In this document: positions 1 through 41,633 of the stretch, in pieces | Position numbering within the stretch: the first letter of the stretch is position 1 | How the letters are laid out: every line of letters starts with the position of its first letter | DNA from: a virus | Strand: one strand, 5' to 3' | DNA: 41,633 nucleotides | IMG/VR virus record: IMGVR_UViG_3300045925_000147 | Location: 1-41,633 of that record | Program-made: the position numbers and the translations under genes | Notes under the pieces: model-generated | Told to the model about the DNA's origin: nothing | Database searches by the model: none | The model's input: the letters and a program-made list of their open reading frames with translations, nothing else

Positions 1-223
1 GGATGCACGGGCTGCACGGGATGCACAGGATGCACGGGCTGCACGGGATGCACAGGATGCACGGGCTGCACGGGCTGCACTGGCTGCACTGGATGCACTG
101 GCTGCACTGGATGCACGGGCTGCACTGGATGCACGGGCTGCACGGGCTGCACTGGATGCACGGGATGCACGGGCTGCACGGGATGCACAGGATGCACGGG
201 CTGCACTGGCTGCACTGGATGCA
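1..223 (+). repeat. 9-bp tandem repeat array, left end
   Basis: About 24 units of a 9-bp repeat read in frame as C(T/G/A)G-G(A/C)T-GCA, giving (Leu/Arg/Gln)-(Asp/Ala)-Ala. Only two of the nine positions vary. The array is the continuation of the one at 41373-41633: its first 21-22 units match the last units there in order, except for one missing Arg-Ala-Ala unit. It lies inside the coding frame of the junction-spanning DUF6745-type gene. Confidence 0.97.
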
Positions 224-889
224 CTTGGCTTCAAGGCTCACCGCTTTTCTGAGTGGTGCGTTCACCGTGGATGGTGGTGGTACGAGGACTTCTCTTGGCT
301 CGCAACGACTGCCATCGGAGCGAAGCAATTCAAGAAGAAGCTGCCGTGGGCGGACGCGGTGTATGACGCCTTTCTTTCGGGTTGCTGGTTCGTCTACTGG
401 ACGGAATCGACGCTCTATTGGGTCGCCAAGCCAGCCGTTCATGTCGAGAAGATGGCCGACGGCTCAAGGCGGCTCCATCGCGAGGACGGCCCCGCCTGCG
501 AGTCGGACGTACAGCCGCTCTACTTCTGGCACGGCGTATTCGTGCCGTCCTTCGCCATCGAGAGGCCGGACTTGATCAAAGTCGCCCACATCGAAAACGA
601 GAACAACGCGGAGGTCCGCCGCATCCTCATCGAGCGCATGGGCGTCGGGAAGTACCTGGCGGAGGTCAAAGCGGAAGTCGTTGAATGGGACGGCGGGATT
701 CGCGGGTGCGACGGTTCAAGTAATCGCGTCCTCATGCGCTCCAAGCATGGCATGTGGCTGGTGGGGACGGACGGCTCCACGGAGCGGGTGTATTACATGA
801 GCGTGCCGGACGACGTGAAGACGCCGAGCGAAGCGCACCGGAGAATCTCGGGAGTGGACGACGAATCAAGGCTGATTTTTGAGGCTTAG
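2..889 (+). CDS. DUF6745-type protein, C-terminal part (gene continues from the right end)
   Basis: The frame is open from the first base of the window to the stop at 889 and is the same frame in which the repeat array of 41151-41633 is read, so this is the 3' part of that gene. Residues after the repeat (from 224) carry a Trp/Tyr-rich stretch ([12 protein letters not shown]), then YDAFLSGCW, then REDGPA, then YFWHGVFVP, then [13 protein letters not shown] and a C-terminal [12 protein letters not shown] segment. From memory this order (HG..VP, then E.NAEVRR..IER.G, then a final VP...T..EA) is that of DUF6745, a domain of unknown function found mainly in bacteria and phages. No activity is known. 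The array merges to roughly 33 units and the protein to about 394 residues if the ends are joined. An internal start at 359 is possible but would cut into the domain. Confidence 0.8.
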
Positions 890-31053: not shown

Positions 31054-31236
31054 TTCCAGCAGCCCCCTCCCCCGCGGTCAATCTAGACGACTCTCCACCG
31101 AAAGTGTTACAGAAATCGCGAACGGCAAAACGGCCTCCCGGAAAATCGCACTTTTCGTGCTTTTTTGTTGTAATAAATCCTCCCCCCTGCTGTCTAAGGT
31201 GCATAAGCGGTAAGCGATCTTTGGAATGCGGGATAC

Positions 31237-31325
31237 GGAAGGGTGGCCGAAAAGGACAATGGCAGAGGATTTAGGATCCTCCGGCGTCTCACGGCGCCTT
31301 GCGGGTTCGAGCCCCGCCCCTTCCG
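31237..31325 (+). tRNA. tRNA-Leu (anticodon UAG)
   Basis: Intact cloverleaf: acceptor GGAAGGG (31237-31243) pairs with CCCTTCC (31318-31324) with G at the discriminator position. The anticodon stem GAGGA/TCCTC encloses the 7-base loop TTTAGGA with anticodon TAG, decoding CUA. A long variable arm (class II) and a T arm GCGGG-TTCGAGC-CCCGC complete it. CCA is not encoded. The AT-rich 180 bases upstream contain a GCAC/GTGC hairpin with a T-run near 31150-31168. Confidence 0.95.
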
Positions 31326-31351
31326 CCCCGTCTTCGTACTGGAGGTGAACG

Positions 31352-32145: not shown

Positions 32146-33252
32146 TCACCGCACAATCGGCGCCTCGATTTTGCAGGTGCAACCGCCTTCCCCGCAGCGC
32201 CCCCAGTGGCCCGCGTGCGTGCAGATCGGGCACACCGTGGGCGGGTTGAAGGGGCAGTGGGGGACCTCCTTCTTGGGCGGCTCGGTCCCGGCGCGCGGGT
32301 GCGCCCGGTCGTACACCCGCCTGAGGCGCTCCATGGACACGTGAGTATAAACCTGCGTCGTCGCGATAGATTCATGGCCGAGCAGCTCCTGGACGTCCCT
32401 AAGGTCGGCGCCGCCGTCGAGCATGTGGGTCGCGAAGGAATGGCGCAGACTGTGGCAGTTGGCCCGAGGGACATTCGCCCGATCGGCCACCGCGTGGACG
32501 ATGTCGAGGATCCTCTGGCCGCTCAGCTGACCCTGGCGGCCGATGAAAAGATACCCATCGTCCTTCTCGAAGTTCGACGCGATCATGTTCCGCTGCGGAA
32601 GCCACCGGAGGATCGCCAGCACCGCGCGCGGTGTGATGACGATGAACCGCTCCTTTCCGCCCTTGTGACGGATCCGGATGAGGCGCGACTTCAGGTCGAG
32701 GTCCGTCAGCTTGATGTCGAGGAGGCCCTGGCGCCGCGGGCCCGCCGCGTACAGCACCTCGAGCACCACCTTCTCGCGTGCGGTCTTCGCCTCCTCGAGG
32801 AGCTGGAGGACCACCGGCCTGCTGTGTACGAGGGGCATCGACTTCGGGACCTTGATCGGTGCGAGTTTCGCCAGCGGATCCCGCTCGATGTGACCCTCGG
32901 TCGCGAGCCACCTGAAGAAGCCGCGGACCGCGCCGACCCGCGACAGGATGGATTTCGGATGGCGCTTCGCCGCCCGCATGTCGGCGATCCACTGCTCCAC
33001 AGCGCCGGTCGTCTTCACGTCCTCCCAGGCCAGGCCGTAGGACGCGAGGTGTTCGCCGAACCAGCGGAGGGAATTCTCGTACGTCCACTTGGTGCGGTCT
33101 GAGCGGCCATGGTTCAGTAGATACGTGAACCACTCATCCGTTCGCTGATGGACAACGCAAGGTGTAGACTGCAAGCCGGATCCCGCCCCGGCCGCGTCGC
33201 CTACACCCGAACGCGCCCTCTCTGCCCCAGGATGCCCCGCTCCACACTCCAA
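32146..33252 (-). CDS. Tyrosine integrase with C-terminal zinc tail
   Basis: A 368-residue phage integrase (XerC/D-like). The SAM-like core-binding domain spans about residues 35-125, the catalytic domain 140-320. Active-site residues are Arg173 (AAGPRRQG), Lys197 or Lys200 (RHKGGKERF), His267 and Arg270 (HSLRHSFATH), His293 (LLGHES) and the nucleophile Tyr302 (QVYTHVS). The last 45 residues carry CPFNP, CPICTHAGHWGRCGEGG and CTC, an extra zinc-binding tail. The TTG start at 33252 is weak and a second TTG lies about 75 bases downstream. It would integrate or excise the phage, probably at the tRNA-like site 290 bases upstream. Confidence 0.93.
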   Translation of the reverse strand: MECGAGHPGAERARSGVGDAAGAGSGLQSTPCVVHQRTDEWFTYLLNHGRSDRTKWTYENSLRWFGEHLASYGLAWEDVKTTGAVEQWIADMRAAKRHPKSILSRVGAVRGFFRWLATEGHIERDPLAKLAPIKVPKSMPLVHSRPVVLQLLEEAKTAREKVVLEVLYAAGPRRQGLLDIKLTDLDLKSRLIRIRHKGGKERFIVITPRAVLAILRWLPQRNMIASNFEKDDGYLFIGRQGQLSGQRILDIVHAVADRANVPRANCHSLRHSFATHMLDGGADLRDVQELLGHESIATTQVYTHVSMERLRRVYDRAHPRAGTEPPKKEVPHCPFNPPTVCPICTHAGHWGRCGEGGCTCKIEAPIVR

Positions 33253-38988: not shown

Positions 38989-39496
38989 GCCGCGCGTCGC
39001 CGGCGTCGACGTCGGGACCCGGCGCGCCGCGTACTGCTCGCTAAGTCAGCGCGGCCAGCGTTTCGACATCCACCGCATGGAGAGCTTCGCGGTCAGGGGC
39101 GACGACCTCCTGGAGCGCATCGAGCACCTGGCGGTCCAGCTCGGCGAGCGCCTCGAGGACGACGACCCCGCGATCGTGGCGGTCGAGGACGGGTACGTGG
39201 GACGGAACCATCGTACGTCCCTCACCATCGGCATGGCGCGCGGCGTCGCGGCGTTCGTCGCCAAGTCGTCGACGTCGGCCCGTGTGCACCTCGTGGACCC
39301 CGGCGAGGCCCGCAAGGCCATCGGGGTCGCGCGCTTTGCCCAGTCCAGGGCGGCCGCGAAGTCCGCGGTGATCGTCGCGGTGTCCCAGATCCTGTGCCTC
39401 ACGACGTCGGCGCCGGACGACGACGAGGCGGATGCGGCTGCACTTGCGATCTGGGCGGCCGGCAGGCTGTGGCAGCTGGAAGCTCGAATTGGATAG
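38966..39496 (+). CDS. RuvC-like Holliday junction resolvase
   Basis: A 176-residue protein of the RNase H fold. Acidic residues fit the RuvC active site: Asp15 in VAGVDVGTRR, Glu74 in IVAVEDGYVGRN and the cluster Asp153-Glu154-Asp156 in DDDEADAAALAIWA; the GVARFAQSRAAAKSA segment precedes it as in RuvC-type enzymes. It would resolve branched DNA before packaging. It overlaps the preceding gene by 23 bases. Confidence 0.88.
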   Translation: MPRSPRGRPRVAGVDVGTRRAAYCSLSQRGQRFDIHRMESFAVRGDDLLERIEHLAVQLGERLEDDDPAIVAVEDGYVGRNHRTSLTIGMARGVAAFVAKSSTSARVHLVDPGEARKAIGVARFAQSRAAAKSAVIVAVSQILCLTTSAPDDDEADAAALAIWAAGRLWQLEARIG

Positions 39497-39507
39497 GGGG
39501 AATACCC

Positions 39508-40575
39508 GTGGCAAGGATCAGGACGATCAAGCCGGAATTTTGGATCGACCAGCAGCTTTCGCTTCTGCCAAGGGATGTTCGATTGTTCTACATCGCCCTT
39601 TGGAATTTCGCTGATGACGAGGCCAGGCTTCGAGGGGAATTGGCCTACTTAAAAGGACAGATTTTCCCCTACGACATCGACATCAAAGAAAGGGACATCA
39701 ACGCCTTCATCCTGATGCTTGAGGAGCTTGGAAAGCTTTGGAGGTGGACGGCGAGCTCCGGCGAAGTGATGCTCTACCTGACGAACTTTAATACGCACCA
39801 GAAAATCGATAAGCGGGCAGACTCAAAACTTCCCCCTCCACCTCATGGACTAGCAACAAAGTACATCAAGAAAGCCATCCCAAACCACGAACGCCTTGCA
39901 CTTGCGGTGCGCTACGGAGCCGCATGGGGAAAGAAGCCATCAGAATTTACATGTAAGTGCGGTACAAGAGGCAAAATCACGTTTTACAGCAAGAGCCACG
40001 TCTTCTTTTCAGAGGTAGCAAGTAATGGCATTCCAATTCGTGCATTAGAAATTGACCACATCATCCCAGAATCAAGCGGTGGAGAGACAACCGCGGTCAA
40101 CCTCCAACTGCTGTGCCAGCGCTGCAATCGCGCTAAATCCTCGGCGGTTCCCGCCGAAAAGTCGGTGGAGAGTGCGGACATTCCGCCGATGGATCAGGGA
40201 TCAGGGATCAGGGATCAAGGATCAGGGAATGGAAGGGATCGCGGAGGCGCGCGCGAATCTGGCCGTGAGGTTCATTTCGAAGAAGGCATGAGGCCCGGGA
40301 AGATCCGAGGCGGCAGCACACCAGCCCTTCTGGTTGAAGCCTGGAACCGGAATCCCAAGGCGAAGCTCATAAGCCACGAAAGCGGGGACAGGCTCGTTGA
40401 CTTCGCCATCGGGAGGGGTGCCGACCCGAAGGCCATCGATGTGGCATTTCACGACCCGAAGAAGTGCGAATACAAGTTCATCTGGGAACTTCTGGACGAG
40501 CTCACACCGAAGCTCGGTAAGAAAGAGCCACTGAAGGACGCCTTTGATGCCTGGGTGAGAGGGGTAACGACATGA
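39508..40575 (+). CDS. Replication-organizer-like protein with inserted HNH domain
   Basis: A 355-residue protein from GTG 39508. The N-terminus (MARIRTIKPEFWIDQQLS, then RLFYIALWNFADDEARLRGE and YLKGQIFPYDI) is the conserved start of phage replisome-organizer/DnaD-like initiators. Residues about 150-220 form a zinc-containing HNH nuclease: FTCKCGTRGK, ALEIDHIIPESSGGETTA and LQLLCQRCNRAKSS. A low-complexity linker encoded by 7-bp repeats follows, then a helical C-terminus (PALLVEAWNRNPKAKLISHE, EYKFIWELLDELTPKL). The first 700 bases are less GC-rich than the last 300. Either a mobile HNH has entered an initiator gene or the fusion is functional in origin nicking. Confidence 0.75.
   Translation: MARIRTIKPEFWIDQQLSLLPRDVRLFYIALWNFADDEARLRGELAYLKGQIFPYDIDIKERDINAFILMLEELGKLWRWTASSGEVMLYLTNFNTHQKIDKRADSKLPPPPHGLATKYIKKAIPNHERLALAVRYGAAWGKKPSEFTCKCGTRGKITFYSKSHVFFSEVASNGIPIRALEIDHIIPESSGGETTAVNLQLLCQRCNRAKSSAVPAEKSVESADIPPMDQGSGIRDQGSGNGRDRGGARESGREVHFEEGMRPGKIRGGSTPALLVEAWNRNPKAKLISHESGDRLVDFAIGRGADPKAIDVAFHDPKKCEYKFIWELLDELTPKLGKKEPLKDAFDAWVRGVTT
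40191..40225 (+). repeat. 7-bp tandem repeat GGATCAG
   Basis: Five consecutive copies of GGATCAG (one with a single change) in the linker of the replication-organizer-like gene, giving DQGSGIRDQGSG. Since 7 is not a multiple of 3, a change in copy number would shift the frame unless three units change at once. Confidence 0.9.
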
Positions 40576-41087: not shown

Positions 41088-41154
41088 TACAACTCCCACC
41101 AACCGCCTCGCCCTGCAATCCCTTCACGGAAAGAAGAATAGGAGCCCGAAATGA
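41077..41154 (+). CDS. Micro-ORF, 25 residues
   Basis: ATG 41077 lies five bases after TGAGG within the end of the preceding gene and its stop overlaps the DUF6745 gene start (ATGA). The product opens MPNNTTPTNRLALQSLHGKK. No family; probably a coupling peptide or a leader for the downstream gene. Confidence 0.4.
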   Translation: MPNNTTPTNRLALQSLHGKKNRSPK

Positions 41155-41633
41155 CCAAGAACCCGCTTCACGATCCCTACGTCAAGGCGTGCGACTACCC
41201 AGGAGTTCTCGATGAGCGCCAGGTAGAGGCGGCGCTGGGAAGGTATCTGGAAGCCTTGGGCATCAAGCGAGAAATTCGCAGACTCCGCGCCGGGTGGACT
41301 TTGGAATCAGAGCCCGCCATCGCCGTCACCGTCAATGCCATTCTTGACGACTATTCCAAGCGGACTGGGAATGCACTGGCTGCACTGGATGCACGGGCTG
41401 CACTGGATGCACGGGATGCACGGGCTGCACTGGATGCACGGGATGCACGGGCTGCACGGGATGCACAGGATGCACGGGCTGCACGGGATGCACAGGATGC
41501 ACGGGCTGCACGGGCTGCACGGGCTGCACTGGCTGCACTGGATGCACTGGCTGCACTGGATGCACGGGCTGCACTGGATGCACGGGCTGCACGGGCTGCA
41601 CTGGATGCACGGGATGCACGGGCTGCACGGGAT
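41151..41633 (+). CDS. DUF6745-type protein, N-terminal part (gene continues at the left end)
   Basis: ATG 41151 follows AGGAGCCCGAA and overlaps the micro-ORF stop. The first 74 residues ([20 protein letters not shown], then [20 protein letters not shown], then [19 protein letters not shown]) resemble the helical start of DUF6745 proteins, in which a helix with A...YL.A.G precedes a variable middle. From residue 75 the protein is the tripeptide-repeat array, and the frame is still open at the last base. The frame matches that of 2-889 exactly, so the gene is complete only across the junction. Confidence 0.8.
41373..41633 (+). repeat. 9-bp tandem repeat array, right end
   Basis: About 28.7 units of the same 9-bp repeat as at 1-223, in frame, each ending in GCA. 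The final 22 units equal the first 21-22 units of the left-end array in order, with one additional Arg-Ala-Ala unit. No sequence divergence besides the two variable positions per unit. Confidence 0.97.

Follow-up and report, generated by a model that had tools for sequence, protein, structure and literature searches.

DUF6745 (PF20530) is found in gp174 of the Microcystis phage Ma-LMM01 (PHROG 31813), a protein that contains no repeat array and is encoded adjacent to gp175, a member of the phrog_27831 family. Fast-evolving, in-frame amino acid tandem repeats, with unit lengths divisible by three and the same residues reused among homologues, have been described in genes of the mobile elements known as Borgs; each element has many proteins with such repeats, whose copies are perfect and which are for the most part disordered (PMC9879509). 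Here, we describe a DUF6745 gene in the IMG/VR virus record IMGVR_UViG_3300045925_000147, the whole of which (positions 1 to 41,633) is referred to as the window. Its product has the domain of gp174, as judged by hidden Markov model (HMM) comparison, and a phrog_27831 gene is likewise its neighbour, but the protein also carries a long array of three-residue units. In relatives of this gene, the order and length of the array evolve very fast while its composition and two amino acid dimorphisms are held, which provides a clean natural case of this kind of evolution.

The joined gene and its relatives

The window is a 41.6-kb phage contig, the two ends of which meet within one gene. When joined, this gene runs on the + strand from 41151 to 889 and encodes 395 amino acids, i.e. 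an N-terminal domain of 74 residues (41151–41372, with the ribosome-binding site AGGAG ahead of it), 33 tripeptides, and a C-terminal region with DUF6745 (225–889, with the stop codon TAG at 887–889). The placement of an array between two conserved parts, made in an initial annotation from the sequence alone, is thus upheld, as is its assignment to DUF6745: the Pfam match (approximately 368–847) has an E-value of 4e-13 and a score of 49.6 bits, above the gathering cut-off of 27. The first 29 units of 9 bp each occupy 41373–41633, where the record end cuts the array, and the 3' part occupies 1–224, in which positions 1–57 represent a version shorter by one 9-bp unit, 58–184 the overlap, and 185–224 the completion of the 33 units. 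The last 127 bp of the record (41507–41633) are an exact copy of 58–184, a pattern to be expected when assembly with k = 127 opens a circular or permuted genome within the repeat; the record is classified as linear in IMG/VR. Beyond the shared 127 bp on the 5' side, AAR is present in two copies at one end and in three at the other, a difference of one 9-bp unit, and at least two versions of the array therefore seem to be present within one assembly, although a slippage artefact of the library may account for them.

Close DNA relatives of the window were not found in the phage collection, and a tblastn search of phages with its own C-terminal domain gave no match, whereas a closer family member used as the query retrieved LMM01-type phages. 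Searches with both conserved parts yielded approximately 50 IMG/VR contigs and three contigs of metagenome-assembled genomes; one candidate locus, L015, encodes an unrelated protein and was discarded. The relatives have DUF6745 scores of 80–102 bits in Pfam, and those aligned over the C-terminal part are 40–45% identical. Their N-terminal domains are also alignable, with identities of 48–65% in the IMG/VR loci L009–L014 and an invariant CDYPGVLD motif. The spacers that the initial annotation proposed to look for in homologues were present in all of the approximately 50 phage relatives: throughout this clade, the DUF6745 protein contains a [D/A]-A-x array at the equivalent position, and the compared repeat numbers range from approximately 7 to 76 units, exact counts in short-read contigs being uncertain. 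No frame break or stop was seen in the window array or in any related array. The proposed hypervariability without loss of frame is thereby supported, whereas tuning of distance or binding valency, which had also been suggested, is at most a possible role of the array, and the wide range of unit numbers argues against tight length tuning.

The sample consists mostly of short-read metagenome assemblies, in which only arrays without long internal repeats are assembled through. At 22 of the 49 loci, the contig begins or breaks off within the array because short-read assembly fails there, and the array accounts for many environmental phage genomes breaking at the DUF6745 gene. Such breaks might suggest an assembly or pseudogene artefact, but this explanation is hardly credible and is refuted as to the existence of the array: intact arrays are present in many contigs, including the 7.3-Mb (L108) and 3.0-Mb (L083) chromosome contigs, and the flanking domains have a ratio of nonsynonymous to synonymous substitution rates (dN/dS) of approximately 0.1. 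Of the two observations that together were to indicate a pseudogene, distant homologues lacking a spacer do exist, but a frame-breaking array was not found.

Homogenisation, dimorphism, and turnover

The unit of the window array is [D/A]-A-[R/L/Q]. Except for the last unit, the minor-base fraction is 0 at all unit positions other than 2 and 8, precisely as first noticed, and the Tandem Repeats Finder score (287–344) is far above that expected by chance. Across the family, site 1 alternates between D and A and site 3 between R and L/I/M/Q. Averaged over 42 arrays, heterozygosity within an array was 0.43 for base 2, 0.47 for base 8, and intermediate (0.13) for base 7, whereas the three wobble bases gave only 0.037, 0.039, and 0.043; heterozygosity was zero at bases 1, 4, and 5, a result partly built in by the array parser, which required D/A followed by A, although the wobble result is unaffected. 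The same wobble bases differ strongly among arrays, with between-array heterozygosities of 0.28, 0.59, and 0.56, respectively. In a tree of 57 DUF6745-domain rows, the three-residue arrays form a single clade (support, 100/100). For the middle Ala codon, at least 14 separate origins of a minor wobble state were counted on this tree (AlaT, 6; AlaA, 5; and AlaG, 3). These data indicate that arrays have repeatedly been swept to one synonymous form, in line with the homogenisation at the DNA level envisaged in the initial annotation.

Both D/A and R/hydrophobic stay mixed in 95–98% of arrays, and the residue switch at site 3 persists through changes of codon (CGG/CTG, CGC/CTC, AGA/ATA, and AGG/ATG). 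This dimorphism at two sites is a family-wide rule that was missed in the initial annotation. The strong DNA homogeneity within each array would also be expected of a DNA-level element, i.e. a replication, packaging, or recombination site that is merely translated by chance. However, the DNA unit differs by lineage, not only in the codon pairs just listed but also in the Ala codon (GCA/GCC/GCG/GCT), while the amino acid rule is constant, and we regard such an element as very improbable. Two DUF6745/array genes, apparently in tandem across the contig ends, were observed in one phage (L062 and L065; IMGVR_UViG_3300031820_000004), and their arrays use different codon sets (CGG/CTG versus AGG/ATG).

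The arrays vary little in composition, with fractions of 0.61 ± 0.14 for D and 0.53 ± 0.15 for R and a net charge of −0.08 per unit, and no clear rule of unit order (charge pairing, periodicity, or D–R or unit–unit correlation) was detected at any lag. Order itself is lost rapidly between relatives, the domains of which are under purifying selection (dN/dS, 0.1–0.15 in the DUF6745-gene pairs compared). The domains of L012 and L013 have a dN/dS of approximately 0.11 (dS, 0.23–0.5), and their array orders are no more alike than shuffles (z = 0.7); even at a dS of 0.03–0.04, the arrays of L099 and L104 (20 and 33 units, respectively) show no alignment above shuffles (z = 1.3). Loci L047 and L048, which are 99.5% identical, differ by a clean indel of 171 bp (19 units) with 50 bp of junction homology, although a collapsed repeat in an assembly may look like an indel. 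Recent block duplications exceed shuffles in 9 of 31 arrays and were rejected as the main pattern, given this proportion and the assembly bias.

Two explanations of this turnover have to be weighed against that of a structural linker. A harmless low-complexity insert that is tolerated by the protein and expands neutrally would account for the free drift of order and length and for the block duplications. The array is, however, universal in the phage clades, always in frame, and constant in composition, and its two dimorphisms outlast repeated homogenisation; neutral expansion is therefore improbable in our opinion. The main rival is a surface selected to change, in which a random charged/hydrophobic helix face would bind a fast-changing factor of the host or of a rival phage, or evade recognition by it, with slippage generating the diversity. 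Variation within arrays is replacement variation with almost no synonymous component, order is fully replaced at a dS of approximately 0.04, two array versions occur in the window assembly, and the dimorphism has outlasted no fewer than 14 replacements of a wobble base throughout an array, all as expected of such a surface. On the other hand, there are few residues per site, the composition is constant, the novelty demonstrable here does not exceed that of free shuffling, and neither a partner nor a host factor is known. We consider this second explanation rather unlikely, but it deserves more weight than neutral expansion.

Arrays of a second type were identified in sister DUF6745 proteins, an architecture not covered by the initial annotation. 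Their 12-bp units encode (S-S-L-x), ([D/A]-S-L-x), ([D/A]-Q-V-x), or ([D/G]-Q-L-x), where x is mostly W/R/G/E, and vary almost solely at one base of codon 1 and at codon 4, most arrays being without synonymous variation. Besides IMG/VR contigs, they were found in phage MW202476, the 7.3-Mb contig (L108), and prophage-like stretches of one Acidobacteriota and one Planctomycetota genome; their presence in this contig and in these genomes indicates that assembly did not create them. The cellular members in Streptomyces, Nonomuraea, and Nostoc, like that of Ma-LMM01, have no array, and those in Deinococcus and Methylobacterium, which are located in STM4011–4015 radical S-adenosylmethionine gene clusters, have leucine-rich-like repeats in its place. 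Such a fusion of leucine-rich-like repeats with a C-terminal DUF6745 domain was observed in L093, L096, and L109. The unit is invariant apart from two toggling residues, its copies are nearly identical in DNA, and the unit number varies in both clades, whose units differ in length; these features and the replacement of the array by leucine-rich-like repeats in other DUF6745 proteins would all suit a modular recognition code, in which the two variable residues of each unit read one element of a repetitive ligand. Units of three or four residues are, however, too short to form separate binding modules, a period of three on an alpha helix places successive units on different faces, and there is no order signal, all of which make this explanation quite unlikely.

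The partner gene and the genomic setting

The gene directly downstream of the DUF6745 gene (909–1373, + strand; start ATG at 909 or 915), which the initial annotation had not linked to it, encodes a small His-rich protein of the phrog_27831 family (E = 5.9e-5) with the pattern ARQGDIY..GSRH..HPEH..LEPG.Y..Q..RVQD. A custom HMM gave an E-value of 1.6e-27, but its training set included the window partner and the match is not independent, and only the phrog_27831 match counts. The main branch of the partner family has invariant G-E-x-T-G-H-x-H and H-x-E-H motifs (pattern, GEVTGHxH..HEEH..PG.Y). Of 31 intact phage loci, 30 have the partner and the DUF6745 gene side by side on one strand, and an 11-nt overlap of the partner with the DUF6745 start is frequent. 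Among 50,697 phage records, the two genes occur in the identical 10 records; nine plasmid records contain the partner, of which eight also have DUF6745 matches, and the ninth, from Skermanella, contains an annotated DUF6745 gene directly 3' of the partner. No other conserved gene was found in the wider neighbourhood of the DUF6745 loci. DUF6745 and phrog_27831 thus constitute a conserved two-gene module that is common to phages, plasmids, and bacterial genomes and of which we found no published description. The two genes are probably cotranslated. In the Ma-LMM01 transcriptome, the neighbouring gp173 belongs to the middle class (PMC5780444), which only hints at expression during replication.

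No credible match to the window partner was found in Pfam, NCBIfam, or PADLOC. The PADLOC-DB HMMs also gave no match for the DUF6745 proteins, and the partner of one relative had only weak, chance-level matches (E = 0.007–0.012). A diversity-generating retroelement was considered and rejected, as the record contains no match to the RVT_1 (PF00078) reverse transcriptase domain and the variation in the units is mainly A/C and G/T at two sites.

Other phage genes in the window encode an integrase, exonuclease VIII, an Erf annealing protein, a RuvC-like resolvase, a replication initiator, a terminase, a portal protein, and a major head protein. A tRNA-Leu gene (31236–31328) is located approximately 800 bp from a tyrosine integrase gene (32146–33252, − strand) and may mark an attachment-site region. 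The open reading frame (ORF) at 39394–40575 combines a replication-initiation N-terminus with an HNH endonuclease domain (phrog_1408 and phrog_5718, respectively) and includes a 7-bp tandem repeat, GGATCAG (5.4 copies; 40191–40228), in which a change of copy number would break the reading frame.

Proposed role and relation to described systems

The explanation that we tentatively prefer, with somewhat less than even confidence, is that the array serves a two-protein module as a helical rod or linker in which unit order does not matter, its composition being selected and its order and largely its number being free. The small conserved-histidine protein and the DUF6745 protein, the latter with its N-terminal domain, short-unit array, and alpha/beta DUF6745 domain, would act together, presumably in the infected cell and as a complex. 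The array would form an Ala-rich alpha-helical rod whose bulk composition (approximately 60% D at site 1 and 53% R at site 3, with a net charge near zero) is under selection, while unit order, and largely unit number, would be unconstrained. Tandem slippage or annealing-type exchange among identical 9-bp or 12-bp units would add, delete, and homogenise units with the frame kept, and after each sweep selection would re-establish both the acidic/neutral and the basic/hydrophobic mix of units. The rod may thus serve as a soluble linker or lever between the N-terminal and DUF6745 domains, working with the partner.

The AlphaFold2 model of one relative (L039; mean predicted local distance difference test score [pLDDT], 81.7) has a confident N-terminal domain and DUF6745 domain, and the array is modelled as two long helices, consistent with the helical spacer postulated in the initial annotation. 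In a Foldseek search of BFVD with a relative's model, all significant matches were DUF6745 proteins, including LMM01 gp174 (E = 8e-7).

Several points weigh against a rod or linker. Diversifying selection would equally give complete turnover of order and is indistinguishable from free order here, and neither persistence in every phage member nor so sharp a rule at two sites is required of a simple linker. Arrays with long internal repeats are underrepresented among those assembled, and the models are of low confidence in the array region (pLDDT, 46–88 in L039 and 30–48 in the 12-bp array of L099). No significant Foldseek match in PDB was obtained for either model, nor a credible match in a PDB sequence search. 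The literature search found no paper naming DUF6745 or a function for either protein, and the view of the system as undescribed therefore stands. A more speculative proposal, which we consider doubtful, is that of a self-diversifying phage recognition protein: slippage would re-deal the units, and DUF6745 and the His-rich partner would convert binding into an effect, forming a diversity generator that works without a retroelement. The family raises a directly testable question, namely whether the order of a hypervariable repeat protein is functionally irrelevant or its very point.

Transcription activator-like effector (TALE) repeats are DNA-reading modules of 34 residues, present in variable number as near-identical units with two variable residues. 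The window array likewise has two variable residues and a variable number of units, but the units in this family are three or four residues long and have no known ligand. The type I antifreeze protein Maxi contains 11-residue repeats. Its long helices (PDB 4KE2) are also Ala-rich and were the top, but non-significant, Foldseek match (E = 0.86); it has no domain or sequence relation to the DUF6745/array protein. Like the Borg repeats, the 9-bp and 12-bp units evolve fast in genes of mobile elements, draw on the same residues in homologues, lie in frame inside an ORF, and have lengths divisible by three, but they are neither perfect nor predicted to be disordered: in contrast to the repeats of Borgs, they are confined to one protein family, are predicted to form a helix, and differ from one another at two fixed sites.
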